A stretch of 50,967 nt of DNA from an uncultured bacterium (GTDB lineage Bacteria; Chloroflexota; Anaerolineae; J036; Brachytrichaceae): positions 1-50,967 of the forward strand of contig CAIXPS010000186.1 in NCBI GenBank assembly GCA_903921365.1. The letters run 5' to 3'. Under the pieces are notes generated by a model. It was not told the origin of the DNA. It worked only from the letters and a program-made list of their open reading frames with translations, and did no database searches. A program made the translations under genes and the position numbers. The stretch's first letter is position 1. The number at the start of each line of letters is the position of its first letter. Below, piece after piece: positions 5,591-50,927 of this stretch.

Positions 5591-5606
5591 ATTTATCTAC
5601 CGATTA

Positions 5607-6656
5607 TTACGGCTGGTACCCTGTCTTGATTGTGCCGGCCTTGAGCCCGTCGGTTGCTTCCTTGACTTTGGCCTTCACTGCATCAGACACCTTGCTGTCC
5701 CAATCATGGAACGGCGCCAGGCCAATGCCTGCGTTCTTGATGTTGGCCGTCAGGATGCCGCCTTTGTCACTCTTGGCATTCACGGTCTTGAGATACTCGT
5801 AAACCGCGACATCCACATTCTTGGTCGCGCTGGTTACCAGCGCATCCTTGACCTCAGGATAGGTGTTGTACTGATCAACATCGACGCCAATCGCTGCGAG
5901 ACTCTTTTCCTTGGCTGCAAGCAAACCACCGTTTCCAGTGTTGCCGCCTGCGCCAAACACAACGTCGCAGCTCTGGGAAATCATGCTGTTGCCCACTTCC
6001 TTGCCCTTGGCGGGATCAACGAATGAGGGGATGTAGACATGCAACGCCTTCGCGCTGGCATTCATCCACTTGGCGCCGGCCTCATAGCCAGTCACGAACT
6101 TCACGACAGGCGGAATCTCCATCCCGGCGACTGTGCACACGGTTCCGGTCTTCGAGATGCCTGCGGCAACGACGCCCGCCAGGAATCCAACTTCATCTTC
6201 CTGGAACATCAAACTGGTGACGTTCTTAAGACCGCCATCCACATAGCAGTCCTTCTTCGAGTCATCGCACACCTTGGCGCCCTTTGTCGGGAAAAAGGCG
6301 TTATCGATGATCGAGAACTTGATGTTCGGGTACTGAATGGCTTTCGCGGCAGTGGCGTCGCCCATCAGAAAACCGACGGTCACGATCACATCATATTTCT
6401 CGGTGGCAAACTGATCGATGTTCTTTTCGTAGTCAGTCGGCTGCTTCGACTCAATGAACTTGGCATCCCAGCCAAATTCAGTGGCCGCTTTCTGAACCCC
6501 GGTCCAGGCAGACTGGTTGAATGACTTATCATTCACGCCGCCGGTATCTGTGACAAGACCGACTTTCAACTTACTGCTGGCGCCGCCGCCTGCACAGGCA
6601 GCCAGCAACGTTGCCGCCGTAATCATGGCAGCAATAGACACATATGACTTGCGCAT
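5607..6656 (-). CDS. BMP-family substrate-binding lipoprotein
   Basis: A 349-residue extracytoplasmic binding lipoprotein of the BMP/Med (PnrA-like) family. The signal peptide ends in lipobox LAAC with Cys21. The family signature GGVNDKSFNQSAW follows soon after, and the protein ends in a C-terminal DGLKAGTIKTG segment typical of the family. Relatives bind purine nucleosides. The start at 6656 is chosen because AAGGAG lies about eight bases upstream; a longer frame back to 6713 would run into the promoter. It is the first gene of the importer operon, with a terminator just behind it. Substrate is inferred. Confidence 0.9.
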   Translation of the reverse strand: MRKSYVSIAAMITAATLLAACAGGGASSKLKVGLVTDTGGVNDKSFNQSAWTGVQKAATEFGWDAKFIESKQPTDYEKNIDQFATEKYDVIVTVGFLMGDATAAKAIQYPNIKFSIIDNAFFPTKGAKVCDDSKKDCYVDGGLKNVTSLMFQEDEVGFLAGVVAAGISKTGTVCTVAGMEIPPVVKFVTGYEAGAKWMNASAKALHVYIPSFVDPAKGKEVGNSMISQSCDVVFGAGGNTGNGGLLAAKEKSLAAIGVDVDQYNTYPEVKDALVTSATKNVDVAVYEYLKTVNAKSDKGGILTANIKNAGIGLAPFHDWDSKVSDAVKAKVKEATDGLKAGTIKTGYQP

Positions 6657-6698
6657 TTCTCTTTCTCCTTTTCTATCTCGCGTCCTTGATACCTGAAT

Positions 6699-6727
6699 AG
6701 TATAGGACATCACAGCAATTCAATCAA
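6699..6727 (-). promoter_or_regulatory. sigma-70 promoter of the BMP importer operon
   Basis: On the minus strand TTGATT (6722-6727) and TATACT (6699-6704) are separated by exactly 17 bases, a near-consensus housekeeping promoter. Transcription would begin near 6692, giving a short leader that carries the AAGGAG before the ATG at 6656. Confidence 0.7.
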
Positions 6728-6749
6728 CTCAAAACAATCCACTCAAAAT

Positions 6750-8105
6750 GTGATAGCATCCGCCGCGGTGTTACAGTCACTTCGCCGGATATCGAATCGA
6801 GTCACGGGGCGCTGGAGCGAGTTCAGAGGGTACACGCCAACTGATCGGAATCTTTTCTATCTCTGCGTTGAAATCATCCCAGTAGGGTTTGCGAGCGGGG
6901 CTCTTGCATTCAATGGCCCCTTTGTCCTGAAGCTGGGCGCTTCGAACGCGCTGATAGGCGCGATGGCTTCATTGCCGGCCTTGATGGTTATCCTGTTCAC
7001 GCTGCCGGCTGCGCGGTTCATGGATCGCACCACCAACAGAAAGCCATGGTTGACTGGCAGCCTGGGTTTGTCTCGGTTGATCTACCTGCTAATTGCGCTG
7101 GTGCCATGGTTGCTGCCTCCGGATATCCGCGCACCCGCAGTCGTCGGCCTGATCGTACTCCAGGCCATTCCACTCGCATTGTTTAATACCGCATTCTGGA
7201 TCTTGATCGCGGACGCTTGCCCACCCGATCGGCGCAGTTCGTTATTCACTACCCGCACGACACTGCTGTCTGCCACTGTGGGCGTAAGCGCGTTTTTGAG
7301 CGGGATATTCCTGGATAGGGTCCCTTTCCCTCTCAACTACCAAATCCTGAATCTGGTCGGGTTTGTGCTGGTGCAATACAGCACTTACCTCGTAAATCGC
7401 ATCACACCGCCCGTCACTTTCTCGCTGCCCATTAACTCCAGTCACCAGGCTGCTTCTGACGGGGTTGTAACCGCGCCGGCGAAACCGGCAAAACCCAGGT
7501 TGTCGGTCGCTGGGGTTCGGTCATTCATCCGTGAGAACCGACCGTTTGTGAACTTCAACGTGAGCACCTTGATTTGCTGGTTTGGCGCCTGGGGTGCAGG
7601 GCCGCTTTATACCATCTTCCTCGTGCGCATGCTGAATTTCAGCAACAGTTGGATTGGAACGAACTCAACACTCGCGCAGATAGCGGTTGTGGTCAGCGCG
7701 CCGCTATGGAACCGGCTGATCAAACGCAAAGGGAATATGTGGACTGTGTTGCGCACAGTGATCCTCACCGGGTTCTACCCCATACTGATTGTCGTGGCGC
7801 CCTTGGCGGCGCCCATCTTGCTGATCGGATTTATGAACACCTTAAATGACACCGGGATCGGGATTGCTCATACCGGCATATTCCTGGATGTCATACCGCC
7901 ACACAAGCGCAGTTCCTTTATCGCAGCCCATACAACGCTCATGAATGTCGGCGCGATGCTGGGCCCTATGTTGGCCGCGCCGCTGGCGGATGTAATCGGC
8001 GTTCCCGCTGTTCTGGTTGTCTGCGGCGTGATCCGTTTTATTGGCGGCGCCATGTTCTGGATTATTCCACCCCGCGCGAAGACCACAGATACAGATAGGG
8101 GATAG
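6750..8105 (+). CDS. MFS transporter
   Basis: A 451-residue major facilitator superfamily protein with about twelve hydrophobic helices. The cytoplasmic loop after helix 2 reads RFMDRTTNRKPW, a variant of the MFS loop motif. A central hydrophilic loop (about residues 225-260) separates the two six-helix halves. The nominal start is GTG at 6750 with no clear Shine-Dalgarno; the hydrophilic first 30 residues leave room for a later start. It diverges from the BMP operon and ends 12 bp before the nuclease gene. I cannot assign a substrate, and the neighbours do not suggest one. Confidence 0.75.
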   Translation: MIASAAVLQSLRRISNRVTGRWSEFRGYTPTDRNLFYLCVEIIPVGFASGALAFNGPFVLKLGASNALIGAMASLPALMVILFTLPAARFMDRTTNRKPWLTGSLGLSRLIYLLIALVPWLLPPDIRAPAVVGLIVLQAIPLALFNTAFWILIADACPPDRRSSLFTTRTTLLSATVGVSAFLSGIFLDRVPFPLNYQILNLVGFVLVQYSTYLVNRITPPVTFSLPINSSHQAASDGVVTAPAKPAKPRLSVAGVRSFIRENRPFVNFNVSTLICWFGAWGAGPLYTIFLVRMLNFSNSWIGTNSTLAQIAVVVSAPLWNRLIKRKGNMWTVLRTVILTGFYPILIVVAPLAAPILLIGFMNTLNDTGIGIAHTGIFLDVIPPHKRSSFIAAHTTLMNVGAMLGPMLAAPLADVIGVPAVLVVCGVIRFIGGAMFWIIPPRAKTTDTDRG

Positions 8106-8117
8106 AATCACCTTCTC

Positions 8118-9356
8118 ATGAGCCAATCCGAACCTATACGCACATTGCATTTCGCCGATATCCATATCGGTATGGAGAACTTCGGCCAGATTGACCCGGC
8201 GACTGGCGTCAACCAGCGCGTTCTTGATTTTATCAAGCGCATGAGTGATGTTGTCGATTATGCGCTTGCAAATGACGCAGATCTCGTTCTGTTCAGCGGC
8301 GATGCGTTTAAAACACGCGACCCCAGCCCGACCTATCAGCGCGAATTTGCGCGCCAGGTCGTGCGGCTGACGAGTGCGAATATTACAACGGTGCTGCTGG
8401 TGGGAAACCATGACATGCCAGTCATGGAAAAGCGCGCGAGCAGTGTTGATATTTACCGCACATTATCCGTGCCAAACGTCATCGTGGGCTCCAGGGAAGA
8501 ACTGCACGTGGTCAACACGCGTCGCGGAAAGGTGCAGATCGCAACTGTGCCCTGGCCGATGCGTTCTCGTCTGCTACAGGACGACGACTTGCGCGACTCG
8601 AATATCGAAGACCTCGACCGCGCCCTCGAGGACATCATGGAACAGGAACTAATCCACCTGGCTGAGTCCGTCGACACGAGCCTGCCTGCGGTTCTGATGG
8701 GACACTTTACGGTTGCCGGCTCAAAGTGGGGTTCAGAGCGGGCTGTCATGATTGGACGCGACACAGTGGTCAGCCTGAGCGCCCTGAACAATCCTGTGTG
8801 GGATTACGTTGCCCTCGGACATATTCATAAACATCAGGACATTAACGCGGGGCGATATCCGTCAGTCGTCTATTCCGGCAGTCTTGAACGGATCGATTTC
8901 GGCGAAGAGCTGGAGCAAAAAGGGTTTTGCTGGGTTGAGCTCTCGCGGGGTCATACGACATGGCGTTTTGTGCCTGTGAAAGCGCGGCGATTTGTAACTG
9001 TCGATGTGGATGCCACAGCCGATGGCGAGACCCCTACCGAGGCCGTCCTGCGCGCGATCGAACGAACTGCCATTGACGATGCCGTCGTGCGCGTCAAAGT
9101 TAAGCTCCTGCAAACACAGGAAGCTTTCTTAAGACCCAAGGATATCGAGAAGGCGCTGAAGACAGCCCGTTTTATAGTCGGAATCGCCAAGGATATCAAT
9201 CGTGACAATCGGACGCGCATCGGCATTGAGAAGGCGGAGAGTTTGTCAGACCCAGAATTGTTGAGAACCTATCTGGTCAGCAAGGGAACGCCTGCCGGAC
9301 ACATCGATGAACTGATGGCAGCGGCGCTGGACTTTCTGGAAAAACAGCCCTCCTAA
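8118..9356 (+). CDS. SbcD/Mre11-like metallophosphoesterase nuclease
   Basis: A 412-residue calcineurin-fold nuclease with all phosphoesterase motifs: DIHIG (Asp14, His16), GD (61-62), GNHD (96-99), GHF (195-197) and GHIH (234-237). These ligate the two manganese ions in SbcD/Mre11, which with the SbcC/Rad50 ATPase processes DNA ends and hairpins. The C-terminal 100 residues correspond to the capping region. No sbcC partner is adjacent, unlike the usual sbcDC arrangement. Its stop codon lies inside a 21-nt dispersed repeat (9351-9371). The fold is certain; an end-processing role follows from the family. Confidence 0.85.
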   Translation: MSQSEPIRTLHFADIHIGMENFGQIDPATGVNQRVLDFIKRMSDVVDYALANDADLVLFSGDAFKTRDPSPTYQREFARQVVRLTSANITTVLLVGNHDMPVMEKRASSVDIYRTLSVPNVIVGSREELHVVNTRRGKVQIATVPWPMRSRLLQDDDLRDSNIEDLDRALEDIMEQELIHLAESVDTSLPAVLMGHFTVAGSKWGSERAVMIGRDTVVSLSALNNPVWDYVALGHIHKHQDINAGRYPSVVYSGSLERIDFGEELEQKGFCWVELSRGHTTWRFVPVKARRFVTVDVDATADGETPTEAVLRAIERTAIDDAVVRVKVKLLQTQEAFLRPKDIEKALKTARFIVGIAKDINRDNRTRIGIEKAESLSDPELLRTYLVSKGTPAGHIDELMAAALDFLEKQPS

Positions 9357-9371
9357 AGGATTCAAAGCAAT
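9351..9371 (+). repeat. dispersed 21-nt repeat, copy 1
   Basis: First of three identical 21-nt copies (others at 15838-15858 and 21657-21677), beginning TCCTAAAGG and ending AAAGCAAT. It contains the TAA stop of the SbcD-like gene. Its AAAGGA and the following ATG at 9370 form a ribosome-binding site and start of a minicistron. With copy 2 the identity extends three bases further left (CCC). Confidence 0.75.
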
Positions 9372-9390
9372 GAAGGATGCACAGTCATAA
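9370..9390 (+). CDS. 6-codon leader minicistron before the MetH-N/MTHFR gene
   Basis: ATG at 9370 is preceded by AAAGGA at good spacing and reads M-K-D-A-Q-S-stop. Its TAA shares an A with the ATG of the next gene (TAATG at 9388-9392), the standard geometry for re-initiation. The enzyme's own ATG has its nearest AAGGA about 12 bases upstream, so translation may depend on this minicistron. Expression of the peptide is inferred, not shown. Confidence 0.4.
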   Translation: MKDAQS

Positions 9391-11294
9391 TGAAATTTCT
9401 TGAACGTTTGCAGGCACAGTCACTGCTGGCGGATGGCGCCATGGGCACAATGCTCTACGCGCGCGGTATTGACTTCGAAGAATGCCTCGACGCGCTCAAT
9501 ACCACCAAACCGGATGTGATCAGCGACGTGCACCGGCAATACGCCGCGGCCGGCGCGGATATCATTGAAACCAACACCTTCGGCGCGAATCGTTTCAAGC
9601 TGGAGCATCACAGCCTGGCACGCAATATCACCGAGATCAATGCCCGTGGCGTCGAGCTCGCCCGCCAGGCGGGTCGCGATGTGCGCGCCGGCATCTACGT
9701 CGCGGGCTCGATTGGGCCGCTGGGTGTTCAGCTCGCGCCACTCGGCCCGGTAAAGGCGGCGGACGCCTTCGATGTCTTTTATGAGCAGATCATCGCGCTG
9801 GCCGACGCAGGCGCCGACCTGCTTGTGCTGGAGACGTTCTCCGACATCAACGAGATTGAGCAGGCAATTCGCGCAGCCAGGGCCGCCTGTGATCTGCCGA
9901 TCGTTGCACAAATGTCATTTACGCGCGACAACAGCACGACCTTGGGCAGCACGCCGGAAAGCGCCGCGCGGCGTCTGCTGCAACTGGGCGTTGATGTGAT
10001 CGGCGCAAACTGCTCAACAGGCCCGAACCGCATGCTGGATGTGGCATCGACGATGTATAAAGTCGCGCAACAGGAACGAACTTCGCCGCCGCTCATCTCA
10101 GCCATGCCTAACGCCGGTTTTCCCGAAGTCCGCGCTGAGCGTCTGGCATATCCAGCGCGTCCAGAATACTTTGGGCAATATGCGACACGCTTTATTGCCG
10201 CCGGAGTAAGGTTGGTGGGGGGTTGCTGCGGCACAACGCCACAGCACATCCAATCGATGCGCGCGGCGATAGACCGATTCGGCCCGCAACTCGCGGACGA
10301 CCGCGACACCACTATCTCCATTGCGACGCCCCGTTCACTAGATTCAGCCGTCGCACCCAAGGCCGAGGCCAGGTCAGCAACCGAACCCACGATCTTGGCG
10401 CAGGCGATTCAAGCTCACAAACTGGTCATCACGGTTGAGATTGAGCCGCCCAAGAGCAGCGATACGGAAGCAATCGAGGACACCGCCCGCATGTTGCGCG
10501 ACGCCGGCGCGACCGTGCTCGATATAGCAGACAGCCCGATGGCGCGCATGCGTATGAGTGGTCTCGCCGTCGCTCACCGTGTGCAGGAACGCGCCGGGAT
10601 TGAAACAATCCTGCACTTCCCGGTGCGCGGGCGCAATCTGTTGCGAGTGCAGGGCGACTTGCTGGCTGCGCATGCGTTGAACATCCGCAACATTTTTGTG
10701 ATCATGGGCGACCCGACCCGCATCGGCGACTATCCTCAGGCAAATGATCATCACGATATCGTTCCCACCGGTCTGGCGCAACTCATAAAAGACAAATTCA
10801 ACCATGGGATGGACAGTGCCGGCTCTTCCATCGGTCGCCCATGCGCGTTTGTTGTCGGAATGGCCGCCAACTTAACCCCATCGGATTTTGACAAGGAAGC
10901 CGCCCTGCTCCACAAGAAAATCGAGTGCGGCGCCGATTTCGCAATCACACAACCCGTCTTTGACGCCGGACGTGCGCGCGCGTTTGTCGCCCACTATGAA
11001 ACCCGCTATGGAAAGTTACTGCTGCCGATCATCAGCGGCATCATGCCGCTTGCCAGTGTGCGACACGCCGAATTCATGCGCAACGAAGTGCCTGGCATCG
11101 TCATCCCGGACGCCGTTATCGAACGGTTAAGGGGTGTTGGGAACAAGACCCGCACCGAAGGCGCTCAGATCGCTGTTGAGACGATCACGGGACTGCGTCC
11201 ACTCATTCAGGGCGTCTACATCCTCCCAGCCTTCGGAAGGTATGACGTGGTCGCTAACATCATCCAGGAAGTGCACAACGCGGCAAGCAAGTAA
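9390..11294 (+). CDS. bifunctional homocysteine S-methyltransferase / 5,10-methylenetetrahydrofolate reductase
   Basis: A 634-residue fusion. The N-terminal part (about 1-300) is a homocysteine methyltransferase barrel beginning with DGAMGT and carrying the zinc cysteines in NCSTGP (near 206) and GGCCGT (near 277). The C-terminal part (about 335-634) is a MetF-type FAD barrel, with VTVEIEPPKS opening the domain and the FVIMGDPTR motif. Together they reduce methylene-THF and methylate homocysteine to methionine. The full cobalamin-dependent MetH modules are absent from this chain, as in other proteins of this fused type. Length is normal for the fusion. Translation is probably coupled to the minicistron at 9370. 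Confidence 0.92.
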   Translation: MKFLERLQAQSLLADGAMGTMLYARGIDFEECLDALNTTKPDVISDVHRQYAAAGADIIETNTFGANRFKLEHHSLARNITEINARGVELARQAGRDVRAGIYVAGSIGPLGVQLAPLGPVKAADAFDVFYEQIIALADAGADLLVLETFSDINEIEQAIRAARAACDLPIVAQMSFTRDNSTTLGSTPESAARRLLQLGVDVIGANCSTGPNRMLDVASTMYKVAQQERTSPPLISAMPNAGFPEVRAERLAYPARPEYFGQYATRFIAAGVRLVGGCCGTTPQHIQSMRAAIDRFGPQLADDRDTTISIATPRSLDSAVAPKAEARSATEPTILAQAIQAHKLVITVEIEPPKSSDTEAIEDTARMLRDAGATVLDIADSPMARMRMSGLAVAHRVQERAGIETILHFPVRGRNLLRVQGDLLAAHALNIRNIFVIMGDPTRIGDYPQANDHHDIVPTGLAQLIKDKFNHGMDSAGSSIGRPCAFVVGMAANLTPSDFDKEAALLHKKIECGADFAITQPVFDAGRARAFVAHYETRYGKLLLPIISGIMPLASVRHAEFMRNEVPGIVIPDAVIERLRGVGNKTRTEGAQIAVETITGLRPLIQGVYILPAFGRYDVVANIIQEVHNAASK

Positions 11295-32345: not shown

Positions 32346-33020
32346 CTAACCCTCTACGAGGAAATCAAAAAGGAGCACGCCCGCCGTCCAGAAGATGATC
32401 GCAAACGCGATAACAACCCCAAACCACGAACCGTAATCAGCCCATGGGATCGCGTCCATGAAGCCAGAGGTGACGATCACGGAAGCGACGACCAGCGGAA
32501 CAGCCAATGGGAATAGCAGAATTGGAAGGAATATTTCTCTGGCGCGTGTGCTGGCAGCCATAACCGATATTAACGTGCCGGCGCCTGAGTAACCTATCAC
32601 GCCAACGATGACCGTAAGAATCACACCCGGCTGCAACAGCGATTCATCCAATAGAATCGCGAGCACTGGCACGACCACCAGTGATATCAACAGCGTAAAC
32701 AGAACATTCGAAACAGCCTTTCCAACAAAGATCACACTGCGGTCGCTGGGTGTGAGGAGCAGACCATCGATACACTGATTAATCTGCTCAATCGACATGG
32801 AATGCCCCAGCCCGAGGGTTCCAGCATAAACAAGTATGACCCACAGTATGCCTGGCACAAGGGGTTTCAGTGAATCTACCCGCAAACGCAGTGCAAAGTT
32901 AAACAGGATGATTGACATTACCGCAAATACGAGCATGGCAGTGGATGCCTCGCGCGTGCGCAGTTCAACCAGGATATCCTTGATAATAATGGCTCGGACT
33001 TGTTGAAAGTAGAGTCGCAT
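32346..33020 (-). CDS. ccmB: haem exporter permease CcmB
   Basis: A 224-residue membrane protein with six predicted helices and the CcmB hallmark SMSIEQINQCIDGLLLTPSD, in the family position after helix 2. With CcmA it forms the ABC module that, in System I, drives release of holo-CcmE from CcmC. It is the last gene of the ccm operon; hrcA control sequences follow. CcmC, normally next to CcmB, is not encoded here or elsewhere in the window. Confidence 0.85.
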   Translation of the reverse strand: MRLYFQQVRAIIIKDILVELRTREASTAMLVFAVMSIILFNFALRLRVDSLKPLVPGILWVILVYAGTLGLGHSMSIEQINQCIDGLLLTPSDRSVIFVGKAVSNVLFTLLISLVVVPVLAILLDESLLQPGVILTVIVGVIGYSGAGTLISVMAASTRAREIFLPILLFPLAVPLVVASVIVTSGFMDAIPWADYGSWFGVVIAFAIIFWTAGVLLFDFLVEG

Positions 33021-33048: not shown

Positions 33049-33753
33049 TCAACCCACAAGCTTTTCGATTCTCTCAGCGGAAATGTCTTGACACAACTCA
33101 CCCGCGACTTTACCGCCCTTAAGAATCACCGCGCGCGTAACGCCGTCCAGACTTCGACCGTATTCATGTGTCGTCATAATTACGGTCCTGCCTGCAAGCG
33201 CAAGCTCATTCAACAGCGATGAAAGCGCGTGAGCGGACTTTTGATCCAGGCCCGTATAAGGCTCATCCAGCAACAATAGTGGGGGATTATGCAGTATTGC
33301 TCGCGCGATAGACAATCGCTGAACCATCCCCCGCGAAAAGGTGCGGACGGGATCGCGCGCGCGGTGTTGCAGATCAACGCGTCGCAAGACCATGTCAATC
33401 GGCGTGTCGGAACCAGGCGAGCTCGCATTGCAGACATCAGAAACGCCATACATGCGCGCGTAAAACTGCAAATTCTCTTCTGCCGTCAAGTCCGGATACA
33501 CGAGTGTATGGTGTGAAACTACGCCCAGTTTTGCCCGGGCGCGGTTCGCTTCGGTCAATGCGTTAACGCCGTCAACCACCAACTGGCCTTTTTCAGGCTT
33601 AATCAGGGTCGCACACACTCGCAGTAATGTAGTCTTGCCTGTGCCGTTTGGCCCTAAAATCGCGACGAACTCGCCTTTCGTGACGCGCAAAGAGACATCC
33701 CTCAGAACAGGGCGCATGCCATATGACTTGGTGATATTCAGAGCGTCAAGCAT
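33049..33753 (-). CDS. ccmA: haem exporter ATP-binding protein CcmA
   Basis: A 234-residue ABC ATPase: Walker A GPNGTGKTT (about 34-42), a signature in the form FSRGMVQRL, Walker B LLLLDEPYTGLD and the H-loop TTHE. The FSRGM signature, in place of LSGGQ, resembles CcmA proteins outside Proteobacteria. It hydrolyses ATP to recycle CcmE. Position between the cytochrome c lipoprotein and ccmB (28 bp gap) supports the assignment over a generic ABC ATPase. Confidence 0.87.
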   Translation of the reverse strand: MLDALNITKSYGMRPVLRDVSLRVTKGEFVAILGPNGTGKTTLLRVCATLIKPEKGQLVVDGVNALTEANRARAKLGVVSHHTLVYPDLTAEENLQFYARMYGVSDVCNASSPGSDTPIDMVLRRVDLQHRARDPVRTFSRGMVQRLSIARAILHNPPLLLLDEPYTGLDQKSAHALSSLLNELALAGRTVIMTTHEYGRSLDGVTRAVILKGGKVAGELCQDISAERIEKLVG

Positions 33754-33768: not shown

Positions 33769-35589
33769 TTACTCCCAAATCTCGCGGAGGTCGTCTTTCA
33801 TCTCCTGACGAGAAGCTTGATACTCCGCCTCTTTGATCTCTCCCGCTGCATAACGGCCATCCAGTTCGGAAATCTCGTGAATTAAAGCCGCTCTCTCCTT
33901 CGCCAGGTCAACCTCAATCCCCTGCCACTTTCGAATTCGCGCGACCATAAAGACACCTCCCGCGATAGCCAATAAGAGGGCGACAAGTCCAAAGGCGATT
34001 GCGATGTTGTCCTCACCAGGGACCCCGACGCTACGCGGTTGCCCGGTCATTGTAAAAGCGGCATCGGCGCCTGCCTTGAGATCAGGTCTATCGGGCGAAT
34101 ACAGTCGTATGCTGGTTGACTGGATCGGTTGCAGCCCCTTGTCCGTCATACTAGTGATGCGCATCACGTTATCCGGCAGGAACACATCCCAGTTCTTGAC
34201 GGGATAAGACATTGTGCGCGCAATGGACTTGCTGTTGTGGTACGGCAAATCATAAATCATTGCAATCGTTGACGCTCTCTGACCCGGTGGAACTGCATCG
34301 CTATCATAAATCGTCTGGCCATCCTCGCCTAACGAGAATCGTTCACCCAGACCTGGACCGTCGAACTTAAGATTGGTTGCATCAGCCGGCAAGCTGACCT
34401 TAACGGATCGCAACGTGCCGTCCAGTGCCGGCTTGTCGATATACGCCTTGGCGCTGGAATTCTCAAAGATGTAAAACTCAATGACGTTAACACTACCCTC
34501 ACCCACAGCCTGCACAAAATAGTGATACTCAGAAACGCTGATCACACTGGGATCAGTGGTCACTTCATACACAGGGAGCGTGCCTGACAGTTCGAGTGTC
34601 CCCGAAAACTGCGCGGGTGGCGCGTAAAACCTGGCGCCCGAATAGGTAACAGTCGCCTGGTAAAACAAATTGGGGTCGACCGGCAGCGCGGTAAAGGTTG
34701 CCACACCATTTGCATCGAGTAAAACCGTTCGTGAGAGCACCTCGCCAGTCGTGTCATAGGTATGAAGTATGACCGGCAAACCGGTCACCTTCGGGCCGTC
34801 CGGGGTTTGATTGACAGCCTGTAAGTGTATGATCCCGTCTCCCGTAATAACGGAACCGGACGCAATAGAAGGGGTGGAATAGCGATAGCCAAATGTGCGC
34901 ACAAGACTCGCCATTGCCAGACGCGCCGGCTCATCCAGCGTCACTTGCGCGTGCGCGGCGCCCTTGATCATCGCGGCAGACATACTGGACAGGGATGTGC
35001 GCGCCATCCACTTGGCGTCGGCAAAAGAGACAACTTTCGCCGCGCCCAGTTGAGGGCCGTCACCCAGGCCTGCAGATCCATGACACGCCTGACAGGTATC
35101 GATATAGGCCTGTTGAGTTGCCAGCAACGTGGGGGTGCTCACGCCCATCGCCCATATATAGCTGAGCACATCCCAGCGATCCTGTGGCCCAAGCGACTGG
35201 GTAAAGCCAGGCATCAGTTGGTCGATTCGGCCATTAGTCACGACATCAAACCATGCCGCAGGAGTGGCATTTTGTGACAGCGTGGAATTGACCAGTTTCG
35301 CCACCTGGCCGCCCTGCGCCTTGATCATGGTTGCGCGCGGGCCATCTCCCTGTCCAGTATCTCCATGACAGGGCTGACACTTGACAGCATAGATCTGGCT
35401 ACCTTTTGCGACATCAGGCGGCGTGTCCGGCGCCTGATTTTCTATGGCATTAACAGGCATGGAGACCGGCGCGAGCAAATCAGTGACGCGCTTTTGCTGG
35501 GCTGGGCTGGAGCATCCCGCCAGGAACATCACGGCAAGGATAACGACGAATGCGCTAAATGAGCTGGGAGTAACAGTGCGGTGATTCAT
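33769..35589 (-). CDS. di-haem cytochrome c lipoprotein with CcmI-like C-terminal segment
   Basis: A 606-residue lipoprotein (lipobox LAGC, Cys26). Two cytochrome c domains follow, with CQPCH (71-75) and CQACH (166-170); LMPGF near 126 offers the first axial Met. Residues 245-540 are beta-rich extracytoplasmic domains without a known motif. A single transmembrane helix (about 548-568) leads to a cytoplasmic helical tail with EISELDGRYAAGEI, similar to the tail of the next gene's product. It lies between the CcmI-like gene (4-bp overlap) and ccmA, so it may be an electron carrier dependent on, or tied to, maturation. Not a recognised family as a whole. Confidence 0.75.
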   Translation of the reverse strand: MNHRTVTPSSFSAFVVILAVMFLAGCSSPAQQKRVTDLLAPVSMPVNAIENQAPDTPPDVAKGSQIYAVKCQPCHGDTGQGDGPRATMIKAQGGQVAKLVNSTLSQNATPAAWFDVVTNGRIDQLMPGFTQSLGPQDRWDVLSYIWAMGVSTPTLLATQQAYIDTCQACHGSAGLGDGPQLGAAKVVSFADAKWMARTSLSSMSAAMIKGAAHAQVTLDEPARLAMASLVRTFGYRYSTPSIASGSVITGDGIIHLQAVNQTPDGPKVTGLPVILHTYDTTGEVLSRTVLLDANGVATFTALPVDPNLFYQATVTYSGARFYAPPAQFSGTLELSGTLPVYEVTTDPSVISVSEYHYFVQAVGEGSVNVIEFYIFENSSAKAYIDKPALDGTLRSVKVSLPADATNLKFDGPGLGERFSLGEDGQTIYDSDAVPPGQRASTIAMIYDLPYHNSKSIARTMSYPVKNWDVFLPDNVMRITSMTDKGLQPIQSTSIRLYSPDRPDLKAGADAAFTMTGQPRSVGVPGEDNIAIAFGLVALLLAIAGGVFMVARIRKWQGIEVDLAKERAALIHEISELDGRYAAGEIKEAEYQASRQEMKDDLREIWE

Positions 35590-36035
35590 CGGCGTTCGCT
35601 TGTTGTTGGGGTTATTTCATCCGCCTTCACAAACTGGCGGCCACAATTAGGGCAAAAACGATCACCAGAACGCGTGGGCGACCCACACGATGGGCAATTC
35701 AACTTGGAAGTGCGAACGGAGGCGATGCGTTCTTCGATCTGTGCGTCAAGATCATCCTGTGACTTTAATTGATCAAGTTCGCGCAGTACCGTTGCCCCTC
35801 GTTGAACCTGCGCCTCGCGTAGCGTCTTATAGTCATCCCCGTTCAACTTACCAGTGCGGTAGTCAAGGTCAAGCTCGCGTATCGCGCGCACCATCGCTTC
35901 ACGCTCTGCCTCAAGCGATTGGCGATGACTCGGTGGCTCGACGGCTTGCCGATAGGGCTCCAACAGTGGACTGATGACAAGAACGATGATGACGGTCAGC
36001 AGAGCTAAACCGATTAGGATTGTTCCAATACCCAT
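35586..36035 (-). CDS. CcmI-like membrane protein with C-terminal zinc ribbon
   Basis: A 149-residue protein: one N-terminal membrane helix (about 5-24), a helical stretch with AIRELDLDYRTGKLNGDDY (about 52-70) as in the N-terminal domain of CcmI-type proteins, and a zinc ribbon CPSC...CPNC (about 118-136). CcmI in System I hands apocytochrome to the haem lyase. The zinc ribbon is not part of classical CcmI. Its 4-bp overlap with the cytochrome gene and place between ccmG and ccmA fit a maturation role. The function is inferred from context and the helical motif. Confidence 0.65.
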   Translation of the reverse strand: MGIGTILIGLALLTVIIVLVISPLLEPYRQAVEPPSHRQSLEAEREAMVRAIRELDLDYRTGKLNGDDYKTLREAQVQRGATVLRELDQLKSQDDLDAQIEERIASVRTSKLNCPSCGSPTRSGDRFCPNCGRQFVKADEITPTTSERR

Positions 36036-36093: not shown

Positions 36094-36639
36094 TTAGTCG
36101 TTCAGCAAACCCTCAACCGTGCTGATGAGTTCCTGCTGTGTCATCGCCTGGATGACGGTCTTGCGTATCACGCCTTTTTTATCGATGAAGAAAGATTCTG
36201 GCACCCCGGTGATCTTATAGGCGCGCGAGATGCGCTCCTGGATGTCGTCGCCAATTGCGTAAGAGGTGTCATAGGACTGCAGGTACTTCACAGCTGCGGG
36301 TTCAGTATCCAGGTAGTCGACGCCAAGCACCACGAGACCACGATCCTTGTACTGGCGCCACACCTTCTCTAGTGCATCAGATTCCTTGCGGCACTCCACG
36401 CACCATGACGCCCAGAAGTTGACCAGCACCACTTTCCCACGTAAATCCGAGAGCTTAATGTTCTCAGGCAGCCCTGCGCGATAGCCCTGGTACAAGCCAA
36501 TATCGAAATCTGGGGCCAGAGCGCCGGTAGCAGGGCGATTTCCCGGCTGTGTCGCCAACACCATCCCAGTGATAAAAAGACCAATCAGGAGTGCCGACGC
36601 AGCTCCCGCGATGATTATAAAGAGTGTCTTGTTTTTCAC
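36094..36639 (-). CDS. thioredoxin-like CcmG/ResA-type protein
   Basis: A 181-residue membrane-anchored thioredoxin: an N-terminal helix (about 5-29), then a TlpA/ResA fold with WASWCVEC (Cys80, Cys83) and the cis-Pro loop GVPESFFID. Such proteins reduce the haem-binding cysteines of apocytochrome c in the periplasm. The CVEC active site and the neighbouring CcmH are as expected for System I. It begins 11 bp after the ccmH stop. Confidence 0.87.
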   Translation of the reverse strand: MKNKTLFIIIAGAASALLIGLFITGMVLATQPGNRPATGALAPDFDIGLYQGYRAGLPENIKLSDLRGKVVLVNFWASWCVECRKESDALEKVWRQYKDRGLVVLGVDYLDTEPAAVKYLQSYDTSYAIGDDIQERISRAYKITGVPESFFIDKKGVIRKTVIQAMTQQELISTVEGLLND

Positions 36640-36650: not shown

Positions 36651-37145
36651 CTAAGATTTATTGACTTCTTCCTCAATTCTGGCGGCATAACTGTCAGCGA
36701 CCTGGGGGACTGCCGTCGTAATCGTCGCGCCTGTCTGCCGCGGCATTGAGATACGCTTGAGAACAATGACTCCCGCGATCAGTATCGCAATCAATATCAC
36801 TACTGGCGTCACCCACAAAAGCAAAATCACGCCTTCCTTGGGCGGTTCTTGCAACACAGTTGGGCCAAAACGCGTCTTGAAATAATCGATTACTTCTGTC
36901 TGGGTCTTACCTGCATCGAGTTGTGATCGAATCTCCTGCTTCCACTGCGTGCACGTGTCTGTAGGGCAATCCGCCAGATTGCGCCCGCCACAGGTCGGGC
37001 AGTTCAACAACTTCGCAATGGTGTGCACCTGATCTGATGGGTCTGGCGCTTGCGCGAGTGCCGTGTTCGCCACAATTGCGAACAACATAAAAGCGGCCAC
37101 GAAAAAACCGATGCGCACTCGCATCCAGGCGCTGGTGTGTCTCAT
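36651..37145 (-). CDS. ccmH: cytochrome c maturation protein CcmH
   Basis: A 164-residue protein with a cleavable-like signal (about 10-31), the redox motif LNCPTCGG (Cys49, Cys52; family form LRCxxCQ), extra Cys60 and Cys65, and a C-terminal transmembrane helix (about 106-130) as in CcmH/NrfF. It cooperates with CcmF and CcmG in reducing apocytochrome. It overlaps the ccmF stop by 4 bp (ATGA), implying coupled synthesis. The two extra cysteines are unusual. Confidence 0.85.
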   Translation of the reverse strand: MRHTSAWMRVRIGFFVAAFMLFAIVANTALAQAPDPSDQVHTIAKLLNCPTCGGRNLADCPTDTCTQWKQEIRSQLDAGKTQTEVIDYFKTRFGPTVLQEPPKEGVILLLWVTPVVILIAILIAGVIVLKRISMPRQTGATITTAVPQVADSYAARIEEEVNKS

Positions 37146-39148
37146 TTAGATGGCGCTCCTACCGTCTGTGGAAGCTGTGCGGTCCGTCTTACAGTGCCAG
37201 GTTCTAATTGCCAGAATGCAATCAGGAACCCAAAAATGAGCACAATCCCACCCAGCCAGATCCAGTTAATCAGAGGATTGACGTACACCTGAAATGACGC
37301 CGTCGTTCCGGCTGATTCCCAACCAGCCAGAATCACGTACACTTCCTCGTTAAAGCTGCCTGTAATGTCAGCAAGCGTCGCCGTGTATTGCTGCACTGGG
37401 TAGCTGTCGCGATGTGGAAATACCGCCCCAATCAGTCCACCATCGCTTGCCGAAGTGACAAGCAGGGCTGCCTGCACTGATTGACAGTCGCTAAACTCAC
37501 AGGTCACATTACTGATCCCTCGATAAGTGAAGGTATAGCGGCCAGCGCTGAAGCTTTCATTGAGCTTTACGTTGCGAATGACGTCCGTGCCGTAGAACCC
37601 CTTCCCAATAGTGCCGACGGCAATCAACACGATGCCGATGTGGATCAGGTAACCGCCATAACGACGTTGGTTCCGGCGGATCAGATGCCATAACGCCGTC
37701 GGTATACTTTCGCCGGCAGTGCGCACGCGCGCCTGCACGCCGCGGCCATATTCGAGAAGCGTCTGCACAAACGTGTAAACGCACAATGCCAGACACAAGG
37801 ATGGGATAATCTGTCCGGGGCCTGTAACGAGCAACACGATCAGTGATAGCACCGCCGCAATAGCCGGAATAATCGACATGCGCCCTATCGCCTGAGCATT
37901 TGCCTTGCGCCATGCCAGCAGCGGCGCAATGCCCATGAGAATCACCAGCAGCGCCAGTTGCGGCCCGGCAACCTGGTTGTAGAAGGGCGGGCCAACGGTG
38001 ATTTTGACGCCGCTAATCGCTTCCGTTATGGTCGGGAAAATGGTCCCCAGGAATATCGTCAGCGCCGTGCTCACGAAAAGCACGTTCTGCAAGAGAAAGA
38101 TACCCTCTCGCGAGAACCAGGAATCCAGTTTATTTTCGCTGCGGAGCGTGTCAAGGCGCTTAAACCACAGAATGATGGTCCCAGCCAGGATTAAGACCAT
38201 GAATCCAAGGAACATGGGGCCCAGATTAGACTGCGCGAAAGCATGAACCGAGGTGAGTAGCCCGCTGCGAATGAATGAAGTGCCAAAGAAAATGGACACA
38301 AACGTCACAGCCATCAGCAGCACATTCCAGTTCTTAAACATGCCGCGCTTCTCCTGGATCATGGCCGAATGCAGGAATGCCGTCGCGAACAACCATGACA
38401 CAAATGGCATGTTCTCGGATGGATCCCAGCCCCAGTAACCGCCCCACCCCAACACATCGTGAGCCCAGCGGGCGCCCAGCAAAAGGCCAGAAGCCAGGAA
38501 CGCCCAGCCCACCAACGTCCAGCGGCGAGACTTGATCAACCACAGGTTGTCACGCCTGCCAACTGCGAGTGACGCGATACAGAACCCAAATGGAATTAAG
38601 AAGCTTGTGTAACCCGCATACAACATCGGCGGGTGAATGATCATGCCCGCATGACGCAGTAATGGGTTTAACCCGCGACCATCCGTCGGCGGAAAATCAA
38701 AACGCGTGAACGGATTCGCAGCCACCAGATTGATCGCGATAAAGAACAAAGTCACAGTACAGACGACAGCGGTGACGTAAGGAAGCAGTTCCTTGTCCTC
38801 TTTCCAACTGCGCAACATGGCCGCGAAAATGAACGCCGAGAGCAGCAGGTTCCAGAACAGTATTGAACCGTTCTGGGAGCCCCATAGTGCGGTGATTCGA
38901 AAGAACAGAGGCGTCGCCAGACTTGATACGTCCGCGACGTATTTCACGCTGAAATCAAATGTCAGCAGCGCGTACCAAAGGCCTATACAGGCCGCCAGCA
39001 CCAGGGGGAACACGAGCATGGCCGCAGTGCGGCCGCTCTGCACCAGCCTTTCGTCGTTGCGCCGGACGCCCAGCAATGACGCGACAACAGCATAAAGACA
39101 TGCGACACACGAGATGATAAGCGCGATATGCCCAACGTCAGTAATCAT
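37142..39148 (-). CDS. ccmF: haem lyase subunit CcmF
   Basis: A 668-residue polytopic protein with the tryptophan-rich WWD haem-handling motif WGGYWGWDPSEN and HPPMLYAGY before it, both characteristic of the CcmF/CcmC/CcsA superfamily. A periplasmic beta domain interrupts the C-terminal helices, and a final helix follows. It attaches haem from CcmE to apocytochrome c. It starts 12 bp after the ccmE stop and overlaps ccmH. Confidence 0.93.
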   Translation of the reverse strand: MITDVGHIALIISCVACLYAVVASLLGVRRNDERLVQSGRTAAMLVFPLVLAACIGLWYALLTFDFSVKYVADVSSLATPLFFRITALWGSQNGSILFWNLLLSAFIFAAMLRSWKEDKELLPYVTAVVCTVTLFFIAINLVAANPFTRFDFPPTDGRGLNPLLRHAGMIIHPPMLYAGYTSFLIPFGFCIASLAVGRRDNLWLIKSRRWTLVGWAFLASGLLLGARWAHDVLGWGGYWGWDPSENMPFVSWLFATAFLHSAMIQEKRGMFKNWNVLLMAVTFVSIFFGTSFIRSGLLTSVHAFAQSNLGPMFLGFMVLILAGTIILWFKRLDTLRSENKLDSWFSREGIFLLQNVLFVSTALTIFLGTIFPTITEAISGVKITVGPPFYNQVAGPQLALLVILMGIAPLLAWRKANAQAIGRMSIIPAIAAVLSLIVLLVTGPGQIIPSLCLALCVYTFVQTLLEYGRGVQARVRTAGESIPTALWHLIRRNQRRYGGYLIHIGIVLIAVGTIGKGFYGTDVIRNVKLNESFSAGRYTFTYRGISNVTCEFSDCQSVQAALLVTSASDGGLIGAVFPHRDSYPVQQYTATLADITGSFNEEVYVILAGWESAGTTASFQVYVNPLINWIWLGGIVLIFGFLIAFWQLEPGTVRRTAQLPQTVGAPSK

Positions 39149-39160: not shown

Positions 39161-39607
39161 TTACCTGCTGGCTGTGTCGGCGCTCTGATATTTGGTCGGG
39201 CATTGCAGCATCAGTGAATCCTGAGCCTGCCCGGCGTAAAACTTGCCGTCGCCTGACAGTTTGCCAGTGACGATCGCGTGCGCTTCATTTACGAGCGTAT
39301 CGGGCTTGACGCCCTGGTACACCACCCGTTGTCGCGGCGCTTTGGCGCCATTAGCCAGCAAGTCATCGCGGGAATTGACAACATCAAACTCGAGGTGGAG
39401 CGATCCAGCATCGTATTGAATGCTGTCGCCGACGACGACGCCCGTCAGCTTTAGCGACCGTTGGGTTAAGTCCACACCTTGTGCGCGTTGTGCAACGACA
39501 TCGTTCACCGCAACTTCCATACTGCTATTGCCGGCAACTGCAAACCCCATGATTGCTATGACCGCAATAATGATGATGCCGATTCCTATAATGAACTTTG
39601 GTTTCAT
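39161..39607 (-). CDS. ccmE: haem chaperone CcmE, CxxxY variant
   Basis: A 148-residue CcmE: one N-terminal helix (about 4-25), an OB-fold domain with VVYQGVKPDTLVNEA, and near the C-terminus Cys136-x-x-x-Tyr140 (CPTKY) where the proteobacterial protein has HxxxY. The cysteine replaces the covalent haem-binding His, as described for CcmE of some sulphate reducers and archaea. The start at 39607 is preceded by GAGGT; an upstream ATG-like start at 39631 is less likely. First gene of the ccm operon. Confidence 0.88.
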   Translation of the reverse strand: MKPKFIIGIGIIIIAVIAIMGFAVAGNSSMEVAVNDVVAQRAQGVDLTQRSLKLTGVVVGDSIQYDAGSLHLEFDVVNSRDDLLANGAKAPRQRVVYQGVKPDTLVNEAHAIVTGKLSGDGKFYAGQAQDSLMLQCPTKYQSADTASR

Positions 39608-39665
39608 ACTTACCTCTGACGCCTCAAACAATCCATGAAATCAGAACGATATTATTATTGTTGTT

Positions 39666-47528: not shown

Positions 47529-48413
47529 TTGAGAATATTATGGCTGGGATGCGAAGACGCCTACACCCCGATCAGGATGCAATCTGCGGCGTGGGCATTG
47601 GGCATCGACCTGGACGCTGTCGAGATATGGGATCTATCATTCATCAGCGCAGACAACGTCGTGGGCGTCTTTCACCAGAACAAGAACGTCATCGAAGAGT
47701 ATGACGTTTTAATCGCGCGCACGTTTTTTCCATTCATCTCTGAGGTGTTGACGGTGGCGCGTTTGTTCCATGAGGCTGGCAAAACAGTCGTGGATGCCAG
47801 CCTGACGGACGAGGCGTTTGTCGTCAGTAAAATGCACGACTACTTGATCCTTGCCCAGAACGGCATACCCGTTCCCCGCACGTGGCAGGTTGCTGATCCC
47901 GCGACCCTCGTGAGTCTTGCTCAGCAACTCGGATATCCATGCGTGTTAAAAGGGGTCCATGGTTCGCACGGCATTCATGTGCATCTGGCAAACAACGCCG
48001 AGGAGGTCGCGGAAAAGCTGGCCGGTTATCCCCGCGGCGAACTGATGTTACAAGAATATCTGCCCGCAAGCGAGGACTATCGGCTGATGGTGGTGGGGTA
48101 CCAGACCTTGCCACTCATGGTCAGCCGGCAACCCATGCCCGGCGACTTCAGAACAAACGTTGGACTGGGACAAAGCATTGCTGCGCATCGCGTCGCAGAC
48201 TTTGACGGCCTGGCCGAGATTGCGCAAAAAGCAGCCATCGCCTTGCGGCGCGAGTTCGCCGGGGTGGACATTCGATTCCACAATGGAAAACCGGTGGTGC
48301 TGGAAGTAAACCGGCGTCCGATATTCGAAAACTTTGAGCGGGTGACTGGCCTGGATGTGCCGGGACAGTTCCTGCGCTATGTGGTTGAAAAAAGGAATTC
48401 GCATGAACGTTGA
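47529..48413 (+). CDS. ATP-grasp ligase, RimK-like
   Basis: About 294 residues with the ATP-grasp fold: the substrate-binding N-terminal domain (LIARTFFPF), the ATP lid in CVLKGVHGSHGIHV, the hinge LMLQEYLPA, and the metal loop VDIRFHNGKPVVLEVNRRP. RimK-type ligases join amino acids or acids through an acyl phosphate. TTG at 47529 lies six bases behind GAGGAG at the end of the GH1 gene; ATG at 47505 is an alternative but inside GH1. It overlaps the racemase gene by 11 bp. The acid and amine substrates are unknown. Confidence 0.8.
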   Translation: MRILWLGCEDAYTPIRMQSAAWALGIDLDAVEIWDLSFISADNVVGVFHQNKNVIEEYDVLIARTFFPFISEVLTVARLFHEAGKTVVDASLTDEAFVVSKMHDYLILAQNGIPVPRTWQVADPATLVSLAQQLGYPCVLKGVHGSHGIHVHLANNAEEVAEKLAGYPRGELMLQEYLPASEDYRLMVVGYQTLPLMVSRQPMPGDFRTNVGLGQSIAAHRVADFDGLAEIAQKAAIALRREFAGVDIRFHNGKPVVLEVNRRPIFENFERVTGLDVPGQFLRYVVEKRNSHER

Positions 48414-49548
48414 GCAGGTTGACCTATATCACATTCGTATCCCGCTGGTTGCGCCATTCGAGACCAGTTTTGGCGTGACAACGGAACGTGAGAGTATCAT
48501 CGCGCGCATCATTGCGGACGGTGTGGTTGGCTGGGGCGAGTGTGTAGCCGACCAGGACCCCGGCTATTGCTACGAGACAGTCGGCACCGCCTGGCACATC
48601 ATCACCGATTTCCTGATCCCGCGCCTGTTTTCCGCCCCACTGGACACCCCCCGCCATGTCCCCGAAAGGTTTCGCTGGGTGCGCGGGCACCAGATGGCAA
48701 AGGCGACGCTTGAGTCGGCGCTATGGGATATTGCCGCACAACAAGCCGGCGTCAGCCTGCGCGAGTACATTGGCGGCGTGCGCGATCGCGTTGTCGTGGG
48801 CGTGAGCATTGGCATCCAGCCATCAACGGAACAACTGGTAGAGCGCGTGCTGGGTTTCCGTGAAATCGGCTATGGGCGCATCAAGATCAAAATCAAACCG
48901 GGCCGCGACCTCGCCGATGCGCGCGCCGTGCGCGCAGCAATTCCCGGCGTCCCGCTGATGGTCGACGCCAATTCTGCTTACACCTTGAACGACGCCGGCC
49001 TGTTCAAACAGATGGAGGATCTGGATCTGCTGATGATCGAACAGCCGCTTTCGAACGACGACATCTATGAGCACAGCAAACTGCAGAAACAGCTAACCAC
49101 GCCCATTTGCCTTGACGAGAGCATCCACTCAGCCGCAGATGCGCGCTTTGCGATTGAACTGGGTTCATGCCGGATCATCAACATCAAACAAGGGCGCGTT
49201 GGCGGCTTGACGAACGCAATCGCAGTGCACGATGCGTGCGCGGAGCACAGCATCCCCGTGTGGTGCGGCGGAATGCTCGAAACTGGAATCGGGCGAGCGC
49301 TCAACGTAGCACTGGCGACACTTCCCAACTTTAAGCTGCCGGGCGACCTGAGCGCGAGTAATCGCTACTACAACCCCGACCTGATCGACCCGGCGTTTGA
49401 GTTTAACAGCGACGGCACATTGAGCGTGCCAACCGCGCCGGGTCTTGGCGTAAACGTTGTGCTGGAGAGATTGGAGAAAGTGACACTTCGTAAAGCTTTA
49501 CTTTCGGCTAAATCACGACTGCATCTGCTGGCCAACCGGAGCGGGTAA
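48403..49548 (+). CDS. enolase-superfamily racemase (NSAR/OSBS type), 3' end altered by IS
   Basis: A barrel enzyme with the full N-succinylamino acid racemase/o-succinylbenzoate synthase residue set: Lys163 (IKIKIKPG), Asp188 (VDANSAY), Glu213 (IEQPL), Asp238 (LDES) and Lys262 (NIKQGRVGGL). ATG at 48403 follows AAAGGA and overlaps the ATP-grasp gene. Host sequence ends at about 49501, after 366 codons, the normal family length. The last 15 or so residues (from about KSRL) are read from the IS left end. It could racemise N-acyl amino acids or dipeptide products of the ligase; menaquinone synthesis is less likely since no men gene is near. Confidence 0.83.
   Translation: MNVEQVDLYHIRIPLVAPFETSFGVTTERESIIARIIADGVVGWGECVADQDPGYCYETVGTAWHIITDFLIPRLFSAPLDTPRHVPERFRWVRGHQMAKATLESALWDIAAQQAGVSLREYIGGVRDRVVVGVSIGIQPSTEQLVERVLGFREIGYGRIKIKIKPGRDLADARAVRAAIPGVPLMVDANSAYTLNDAGLFKQMEDLDLLMIEQPLSNDDIYEHSKLQKQLTTPICLDESIHSAADARFAIELGSCRIINIKQGRVGGLTNAIAVHDACAEHSIPVWCGGMLETGIGRALNVALATLPNFKLPGDLSASNRYYNPDLIDPAFEFNSDGTLSVPTAPGLGVNVVLERLEKVTLRKALLSAKSRLHLLANRSG
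49502..49512. repeat. left terminal inverted repeat of the IS
   Basis: TTTCGGCTAAA, matched in inverted orientation at 50957-50967. It directly follows the palindrome GTAAAGCTTTAC in the host gene, and the transposase -1-frame stop (49513-49515) abuts it on the inner side. Confidence 0.75.
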
Positions 49549-50927
49549 TTGAGCTGCAGACTGCGAAACCACCTGTTTTGTGCGACGATGAGCCAGAACG
49601 CCTTTGAGCAGGTGGTCGGTGCGCGAATGCTTTTCGCGGCGCGGAGCGGCTCCGGGAGTGGGAAATCAGCAGGAAAAGGAAACCTCGTTAATAGGCGGCG
49701 CAGACGACCAGGCGTGGATTTGGGGTCGCGATCCCAAAAGCCGGTGGGGATGGCAACCTCGCGAGCAGCGACATAGGAAAGCACGGACCCAGCCAGCAAA
49801 GACAGTTCAGGCAAGCGTTGGCGTGCTTCATCTGCGAAGACGAATTGGCGCAGTGCGCCGAGAATTTGTTTGGCGACCAATGGCCGGCTCGGCGGCTCAA
49901 TGCCCCAGCGATCCAGATAAAACTCATGGGCTTGCTGAGCCGATAAGGGCAGGGTCGTGATCAACAGCATGGGGTGCGGGAAGTCGGGATGGAAGATCAG
50001 CACAATCGACCAAGGCGTGTCTTTGACCAACTTGCGTGTGTCGTCATCCCAGTCTTTGGGCTGATCGGGCAAGACAACATCGAACCATAGATGGGCGGTC
50101 ACGGTTACACCGTTGTGAGGATCGACCCAGGTTTCGACCTTATCTGGCAGCGTGGCCGCAATGGTCTTGTTCCGGTAGGTGCGTGGCAGCGGGCGCACAA
50201 TTTCCGGCAGCGACGGCTTACGCCCACGTCCGCCGTAGGCTGGCACTATGCGCCGCCGCGCCGTGAAGTTCTTGGGACGACGCAACACAACGCGCTTGCA
50301 GCCAGCTGTGATAAAGGTCACTGGCCTAAATCCCCGATCCGCCGTCAGAGCCTCATCCGCGCCCATCTGCTCGACCGCAATCCGAACCAACTCCGCTTCC
50401 AATACCTTTTCACTCGGATTGTTCACATCCGCACGCACCAATGCAGTCGGCAGCGTGAAACGTTGCGTATTCACATGACCAACATCACCCACTATCCCGA
50501 TCGGAATCGCTTTCAACGCCTTGCCAGCCGTCGAATCGTAATGCGTCGTGGCACAGTCCTGCAAGCACGGTCGAAAGAATCCCGTCAGGTCGAGTGCTTT
50601 CACCCGATACCCGCCATACCCGCTGCGCTCCCAGTGCCCTTCTTGCCGTACCAGTTCGCCCCACCTTGTCACCAGCCGGTGCGCGTCCCATTTCCCGTTC
50701 GCAAATGCACTCCATGCTCGCAGCACTTCTGCATCACTTAACTCGATAGCCGCCAGTGCCGGGATCAGCGCACCGCGTGTGCCCAACAGTTGACCACTCA
50801 CCAGTGCCCACAGCACTTGCAGCAAGCCCAGGTTGGTGCCGATTGGAAAATCGATCACCAGCGCGATCAATACATTCATCATGCGGTACACTATCTGGGA
50901 CGTCAGGTTTACGTTTTTGGTTTTCAC
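49513..50927 (-). CDS. DDE transposase requiring a -1 frameshift
   Basis: The 0 frame starts with GTG at 50927 and encodes an IS4-like transposase: candidate catalytic Asp residues in ALDLTGF and LTADRGF, and YLDRWGIE, resembling the Y-x2-R-x3-E signature, near residue 362. It does not stop inside the IS but would run antisense through the racemase gene to 49368. At T TTC CCA (49659-49665) a -1 shift enters a frame that continues KHSRTDHLLKG...QVVSQSAAQ and stops at 49513 right at the inverted repeat. The shifted product is about 471 residues. A mutation is the alternative explanation. Confidence 0.7.

Follow-up and report, generated by a model that had tools for sequence, protein, structure and literature searches.

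System I of cytochrome c maturation is described as two groups of proteins, CcmABCD, which loads CcmE with haem, and CcmFGH, which attaches the haem (PMC8975832, in the part available). According to the accessible text of PMC3884852, the two membrane helices of CcmI are connected through a segment in the cytoplasm, and its TPR domain is believed to receive the apocytochrome. In System I*, the haem ligand of CcmE is a cysteine. The chloroflexi are already named among the systems with such a Cys-type CcmE, about one third of which have CcmH (PMC3601427, as far as its available part goes), and these two features are therefore known.

The locus considered here was compared with these systems. By the window we mean the whole stretch of DNA that was analysed, 50,967 nucleotides from an uncultured bacterium of the Chloroflexota. 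On its minus strand, the genes read in the order CcmE, CcmF, CcmH, ResA/DsbE, CcmI-like, di-haem core and CcmA, followed by CcmB (Table 1). ORF starts were taken as the first ATG, GTG or TTG after a stop, and the N-terminal lengths are rough. As in System I*, CcmA, CcmB, CcmE and CcmF are encoded in the operon, the CcmE motif is CPTKY, and a CcmC-like gene is found outside the operon, on contig C315 (with 109 bits, which is below the cut-off of TIGR01191), which places the locus in this type of system. All CcmE motifs among those listed start with a cysteine. In contrast to what is described in the available part of PMC3601427, which contains no mention of them, the operon also encodes a di-haem lipoprotein, called the core protein below, and a zinc-ribbon protein, called CcmI-like; in addition, CcmH is present here and looks intact. 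The genes of the two proteins overlap by 4 bp (35586–35589), as the earlier note had stated.

Table 1. Coordinates of the ccm genes in the window and of the domains of the two proteins under study
Feature	Position	Strand	Remarks
CcmB	32346..33020	-	
CcmA ATPase	33049..33753	-	TIGR01189 above cut-off
Core gene (di-haem lipoprotein)	33769..35589	-	606 aa; CXXCH at aa 71 and 166
Core protein, layout			from the N-terminus: di-haem head (optional), beta domains 1 and 2, a single membrane helix, hairpin at the C-terminus
Core, membrane helix and hairpin	33772..34008	-	membrane helix (from ca aa 528) continuous with hairpin helix 1 (to aa 581); helix 2 (aa 587-605) follows a turn at aa 582-586
Core, beta domain 2 (aa 346-519)	34033..34554	-	fold probably like ribophorin I / N-domain of M1 aminopeptidases
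Core, beta domain 1 (aa 252-340)	34570..34836	-	structure model
Core, haem head (aa 48-249)	34843..35448	-	CXXCH aa 71-75, 166-170; Cytochrome_CBB3 / Cytochrom_C
CcmI-like zinc-ribbon gene	35586..36035	-	149 aa; CXXC at aa 114 and 128
CcmI-like, zinc ribbon (aa 111-136)	35628..35705	-	Zn_ribbon_3 above Pfam cut-off
CcmI-like, hairpin	35709..35927	-	helix aa 37-60, turn aa 61-65, helix aa 66-109
ResA/DsbE (CcmG-like) thiol-disulfide oxidoreductase	36094..36639	-	
CcmH/NrfF	36651..37145	-	
CcmF	37142..39148	-	
CcmE	39161..39631	-	Cys-type haem ligand (CPTKY)

The same genome has a second ccm set, with the order CcmE-CcmF-CcmI-like-dihaem core, on contig C247. Its CcmI-like protein is 61% identical to that of the window (over aa 1–98) and its di-haem core protein 57%. 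This set (locus L006 of genome G000, positions 639–10809) is without CcmH, ResA, CcmA and CcmB in the stretch examined, and it is divergent from genes rich in CXXCH motifs. It might be dedicated to multihaem cytochromes or be the product of a mixed assembly.

The pair of proteins shares several features with CcmI (CycH, TIGR03142). Namely, a membrane helix is followed by a cytoplasmic helical segment, the genes are part of a ccm operon, and weak matches to TIGR03142 are found in both families. This is the NCBIfam model that matches most of the core tails (24 of 42, best E 2.9e-7), and it ranks second for the CcmI-like proteins, matching 23 of 32. However, the scores of the two window proteins are 15.9 and 12.7 bits, and that of the core tail alone 17.5, and none of these reaches the cut-off of 29.3. 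Among the proteins examined singly no score exceeds the cut-off, the highest being 28.3 bits (L068). In the whole genome of the window the best match is 16.7 bits against the 29.3 required, which means that no standard CcmI was found there. The pair also differs from CcmI in having no TPR domain: no TPR family was found for the core protein, nor among the best 25 of the 34 Pfam matches of the zinc-ribbon protein. According to its structure model, the latter protein has a single membrane helix, without the second one of CcmI, and no outside domain, and it has the zinc ribbon in addition. The earlier remark that a zinc ribbon is not typical of CcmI is thus correct as to CcmI itself, but the CcmI-like family commonly has it: of 78 ORFs, 55 have two or four CXXC motifs, one has a single motif and 22 are without. 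A Foldseek search with the CcmI-like model gave nothing at E < 0.001, the top rows being ESCRT-I helical hairpins. Since membership in CcmI fails on the score, the TPR domain and the second helix, only a likeness of function is claimed in the following.

We now consider the helical segment itself. The earlier note had pointed to a motif, I-x-E-L-D-x2-Y-x2-G, shared by the two proteins, and this pattern is present exactly in both, as ISELDGRYAAG at aa 573 of the core protein and as IRELDLDYRTG at aa 52 of the CcmI-like protein. It lies, as also proposed there, next to a membrane helix, at the C-terminus of the former and after the N-terminal helix of the latter, in both cases probably on the cytoplasmic side. 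A slightly looser codon pattern occurs four times in the 6.88 Mb genome, and once in the reversed control. The four occurrences are the two window genes, the paralogous CcmI-like gene on C247 and one unrelated protein (radical SAM, as judged by eye). BLASTP of the two window proteins against each other gives an E-value of 0.005 in this one comparison. The exact pattern and the pairwise alignment are too weak on their own, and family profiles were therefore used.

The alignment with hhalign of the post-membrane segments of the two families, comprising 42 core-family rows and 30 CcmI-like rows (two of the 32 were dropped as too short), has a probability of 96.5 and a score of 42.9. The maximum among 200 column shuffles is 16.8, and the reversed controls give 10.7 and 8.9. 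Shuffling in blocks of seven columns was also tried as a null and peaked at 44.7, above the real score, but it was set aside because an intact motif block can survive and realign. A tail profile made from 21 cytochrome-family tails finds, below E 0.01 in the whole genome, only the two core and the two CcmI-like copies, the CcmI-like hairpins with E-values of 7.9e-5 and 2.5e-4 and the next match with 0.275. When applied to 8054 ORFs from related loci, it matches 78 core-family and 42 CcmI-like proteins at E < 0.01 and no other family among these ORFs. The 78 core matches are partly circular, because the profile was built from that family, while the 42 CcmI-like matches are not. In the AlphaFold2 models (mean pLDDT 89.7 and 91.0) the turns are at equivalent residues, aa 582–586 in the core protein and 61–65 in the CcmI-like protein, and the motif is in the same register of the hairpin. 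The hairpin is most likely common to both proteins by descent.

It should be noted that the hairpin is of a generic type, since the Pfam models GvpG, DUF4381 and SHOCT also match the core tails (38, 19 and 11 of 42, respectively, at E up to 1). These families have the same short helix-turn-helix type of sequence, and their segments occur in unrelated contexts. The window core protein is, however, below both the SHOCT and the GvpG cut-offs; for SHOCT (PF09851) the score is 20.6 bits for the whole protein and 23.6 for the tail alone, against a gathering cut-off of 27. Given the resemblance to GvpG and SHOCT, a sequence likeness to CcmI does not establish that the proteins act as CcmI does. The earlier note had held that many unrelated proteins with the same pattern would speak against its proposal. 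Such proteins exist as far as the three Pfam families are concerned, but within the genomes and loci searched here the hairpin is specific to the two ccm families.

The rest of the core protein was characterized on the basis of its structure model and family alignments. In the haem head of the window protein, PF13442 and PF00034 are both above their cut-offs, on two stretches each, which classifies it as a class I cytochrome c and makes it similar to subunit III of the cbb3 type; the head is optional, however, and the remaining part of the protein has no counterpart in these cytochromes. Relatives across the class align from ca aa 250 to the end, whether the head is present or not. Beta domain 1 is carboxypeptidase-regulatory-like in 13 of 37 members. 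For beta domain 2 no family was found in Pfam or NCBIfam. Its fold appears to be like that of ribophorin I (OST1) and the N-domain of M1 aminopeptidases, with Z 11.7 and an rmsd of 3.5 over 164 residues for ribophorin I, Z 10.4–11.8 among the rows listed, and rmsd 3.5–4.3 for the single-domain alignments, the domain having been modelled within a longer chain. OST1 is a one-pass subunit of a maturation enzyme, which would be a further likeness to the core protein, but the sequence identity is only 6–15% in the OST1 and M1 rows, and a fold likeness shows no function. Searches of PDB sequences with the tail and core profiles gave no convincing relative. The hairpin residues D577, G583, Y590 and R594 are among the best conserved positions of the core, which has about 360 residues, and, two invariant prolines excepted, they equal the best positions of the beta domains. 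A conserved histidine that could be a haem ligand was also looked for in the beta domains, but H356, which is present in 54 of 91 sequences, is too variable for such a claim.

We propose that the pair represents a CcmI-like scaffold function that is divided over two proteins, within a Chloroflexota System I with a Cys-type CcmE. We consider the chances of this reading to be about even. The zinc-ribbon protein would then retain the membrane helix and the cytoplasmic hairpin of the first part of CcmI, with its zinc ribbon on the inner side. The core protein, as a dedicated System I component whose two beta domains are exported and connected by one membrane helix to a hairpin in the cytoplasm, would supply the platform on the outside, with beta domains in place of the TPR repeats, on a second hairpin. 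As a scaffold or chaperone, it may hold the apocytochrome near CcmF and connect haem loading by CcmABCDE with haem attachment by CcmFGH, possibly through docking of the hairpins. In the window's lineage, this machinery would also mature the di-haem domain, from which electrons could reach the haem or the thiols there. Here, it has to be kept in mind that the position of a gene in an operon does not imply physical contact.

Next, we examined with which of the two ccm groups the core gene goes. Across the sampled phylum, a CcmI-like gene is found upstream of 68 of 91 core ORFs and CcmA downstream of 59; 6 of the 91 lack any ccm gene on their own strand within 8 kb, and contig ends interrupt some of the clusters. 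In some genomes the clusters are split. In 11 of these (G005, G012, G017, G021, G040, G042, G046, G049, G052, G056 and G057) the core gene is with CcmA, and usually with CcmB or CcmE, whereas the CcmI-like gene accompanies CcmF. In a further 12 (G006, G007, G009, G010, G013, G015, G019, G022, G023, G025, G026 and G027) the core and CcmI-like genes are both with CcmF, and CcmB is elsewhere. In G023 and G056 the ccm parts are ca 3.1 Mb and ca 0.6 Mb apart, respectively, and since each of these genomes is one contig, the split is not an assembly effect. The earlier note had suggested that the shared helix may recruit both proteins to one partner, CcmF or CcmA. This distribution does not establish such a partner, as the two genes part in the first set of genomes and keep together in the second, and each hairpin can be absent where the other is present.

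One could envisage that the core protein belongs to the haem-loading group (CcmABCD/E) rather than to a divided CcmI, where it might take the place of CcmD and promote the release of holo-CcmE. The frequent CcmA downstream and the first 11 genomes are in line with this, as is the topology of CcmD, which according to the available part of PMC10457321 has its N-terminus outside, one membrane helix and a cytoplasmic extension, as the core protein has. However, CcmD is tiny, and the other 12 genomes keep the core gene with CcmF, CcmH and the CcmI-like gene and away from CcmB, in G023 by the distance given above. We consider this option unlikely. Taken together, the two sets of genomes place the core between the two groups. 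A more far-reaching reading is that the core is an undescribed subunit, accompanying CcmF in all but a few cases, which forms a bridge from the haem-loading group to the haem-attaching one, and whose own two c-haems, self-matured and found in one lineage, serve as a built-in reductant or a quality check. We put this forward only tentatively and regard it as somewhat improbable.

Another option considered was that the two hairpins bind each other, in a fixed heterodimer of the core and CcmI-like proteins. The two proteins have the same hairpin and adjacent, overlapping genes, and both hairpins are detected in 67 of the 80 genomes that have both genes in the loci examined. However, there are 7 genomes in which the CcmI-like protein alone lacks the hairpin and 4 in which the core protein alone does (one of them with an interrupted gene), and losses in the two proteins show no significant association (table [[2,4],[7,67]], Fisher p 0.13, at small numbers). 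A fixed heterodimer is thus quite unlikely, and the divided scaffold is retained as the preferred reading.

We then turned to the haem head. Among 92 core ORFs in 89 genomes (two partial matches had been excluded before this count), at least two CXXCH motifs are found in 37, one in 6 and none in 49, the last number including L063, which is a 3' fragment of a haem-bearing gene. The window's class has members with zero, one or two haem motifs, and in the other classes of the phylum none is present in any of the 34 ORFs examined. The haem-less members mostly retain the operon position and the tail; of all 92 ORFs, the tail HMM (E < 0.01) detects the hairpin in 78 and misses it in 14, a few of which are truncated or interrupted genes. 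The core gene was also compared with CcmF (at E < 1e-8 and E < 1e-90, respectively) in 60 genomes, that is, the window's own and its relatives. The core is present in 50 of the 52 genomes with CcmF and in none of the 8 without (Fisher p 1.8e-8, with relatedness not corrected), 2 of these 8 (G048 and G050) carrying CcmF fragments at contig ends and possibly having the gene after all. In the two exceptions, G032 and G037, CcmF, CcmA and CcmB are present and the core was not found.

These results show that the suggestion of a maturation-coupled cytochrome made in the earlier note holds in that the gene is tied to maturation, by its co-occurrence with CcmF and by its neighbours, but that its emphasis has to be reversed, because the haem head is absent from 49 of the 92 ORFs. 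The protein is better understood as part of the Ccm system that can bear a cytochrome head than as a cytochrome that Ccm has drawn in, and it very probably belongs to the cytochrome maturation system. That it would instead be an ordinary respiratory di-haem cytochrome, located in the ccm operon by chance and with a generic SHOCT/GvpG-like tail of no specific meaning, agrees with its two standard CXXCH domains and with the GvpG and SHOCT matches to the tails, but is very improbable, being largely refuted by the haem-less members that mostly keep operon position and tail, and being at odds both with the absence of the core from the CcmF-less genomes and with a tail profile that matches only the two ccm families among the 8054 ORFs.

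The samples behind these numbers were as follows. In a wider search covering 301 genomes, 172 have a match with an E-value of up to 0.001, and leaving out 35 that are weaker than 1e-20 gives 137; 40 loci were taken from this search, hand-picked for spread. A contig scan with haem-bearing queries gave good matches (E 7e-29 or better) for 9 of 15 loci, 8 being Chloroflexi-type by record title and one an uncultured bacterium, and the other 6 are weak matches to the haem part or the signal end. The tail alignment (A1) contains 42 of 51 core-family ORFs, with L046–L050, L058, L062, L067 and L071 excluded as tail-less, truncated or interrupted. Alignment A3 contains 43 of the 51, A4 contains 21 of the 42 tails, chosen by hand, and A5 the 37 of 43 that remain after a 72% identity filter. 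In a tree of 88 cores, from which L050, L062, L063, L071 and short partial matches were excluded, the presence of haem takes at least four changes, and the starred branches are compatible with one origin, the tree being from a quick method and with many weak branches. The branches are too weak for a claim of gain versus loss, and none is made. The idea that the head would occur as a separate gene beside a haem-less core, in the manner of a Rosetta stone, was also abandoned, as only one ORF with a match to the head, L203 (220 aa), was found in the 50 loci flagged; two of the flags are due to L063, which is a gene fragment, and L083, which is a CcmI-like ORF.

As to novelty, a literature search by title and opening of the abstract, with most subscription journals outside its coverage, gave no description of the core protein or the optional haem head, the available parts of PMC9084895 and PMC9616876 included. 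The core protein is thus apparently a widespread, undescribed part of the assembly machinery. The core with its optional haem head appears to be new, and the rest of the machine, System I, is known. The protein is conserved in the ccm clusters of much of the phylum, with a main domain without a Pfam or NCBIfam family, and it is a concrete candidate for how System I could do without a CcmI of the TPR type and how a physical link between its halves could be made. Where these genes are annotated simply as cytochrome c, a component of maturation is hidden from view. The haem-less and haem-bearing orthologues constitute a natural experiment: if the head adds a reductant or a checking function, the lineages should differ measurably.

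Finally, some smaller observations on these loci can be mentioned. In L054 and L169 (G036 and G326) a 513-aa ORF matches CcmA, and in G036 a CcmB match lies in a 575-aa frame, so that a CcmA-CcmB fusion adjoining the core gene is possible in these loci. In L116–L118 (G005, G012 and G017) the CcmF frames are ca 830 aa, compared to ca 670, and no CcmH was detected in these loci. The CcmI-like frames of L168, L191, L192, L195 and L198 are 408–464 aa long, which corresponds either to enlarged zinc-ribbon forms or to over-extended starts. Near the end of the window, on the minus strand at 49368–50927, there is an ORF, transposase-like as judged by eye, that overlaps the end of the gene at 48355–49548.
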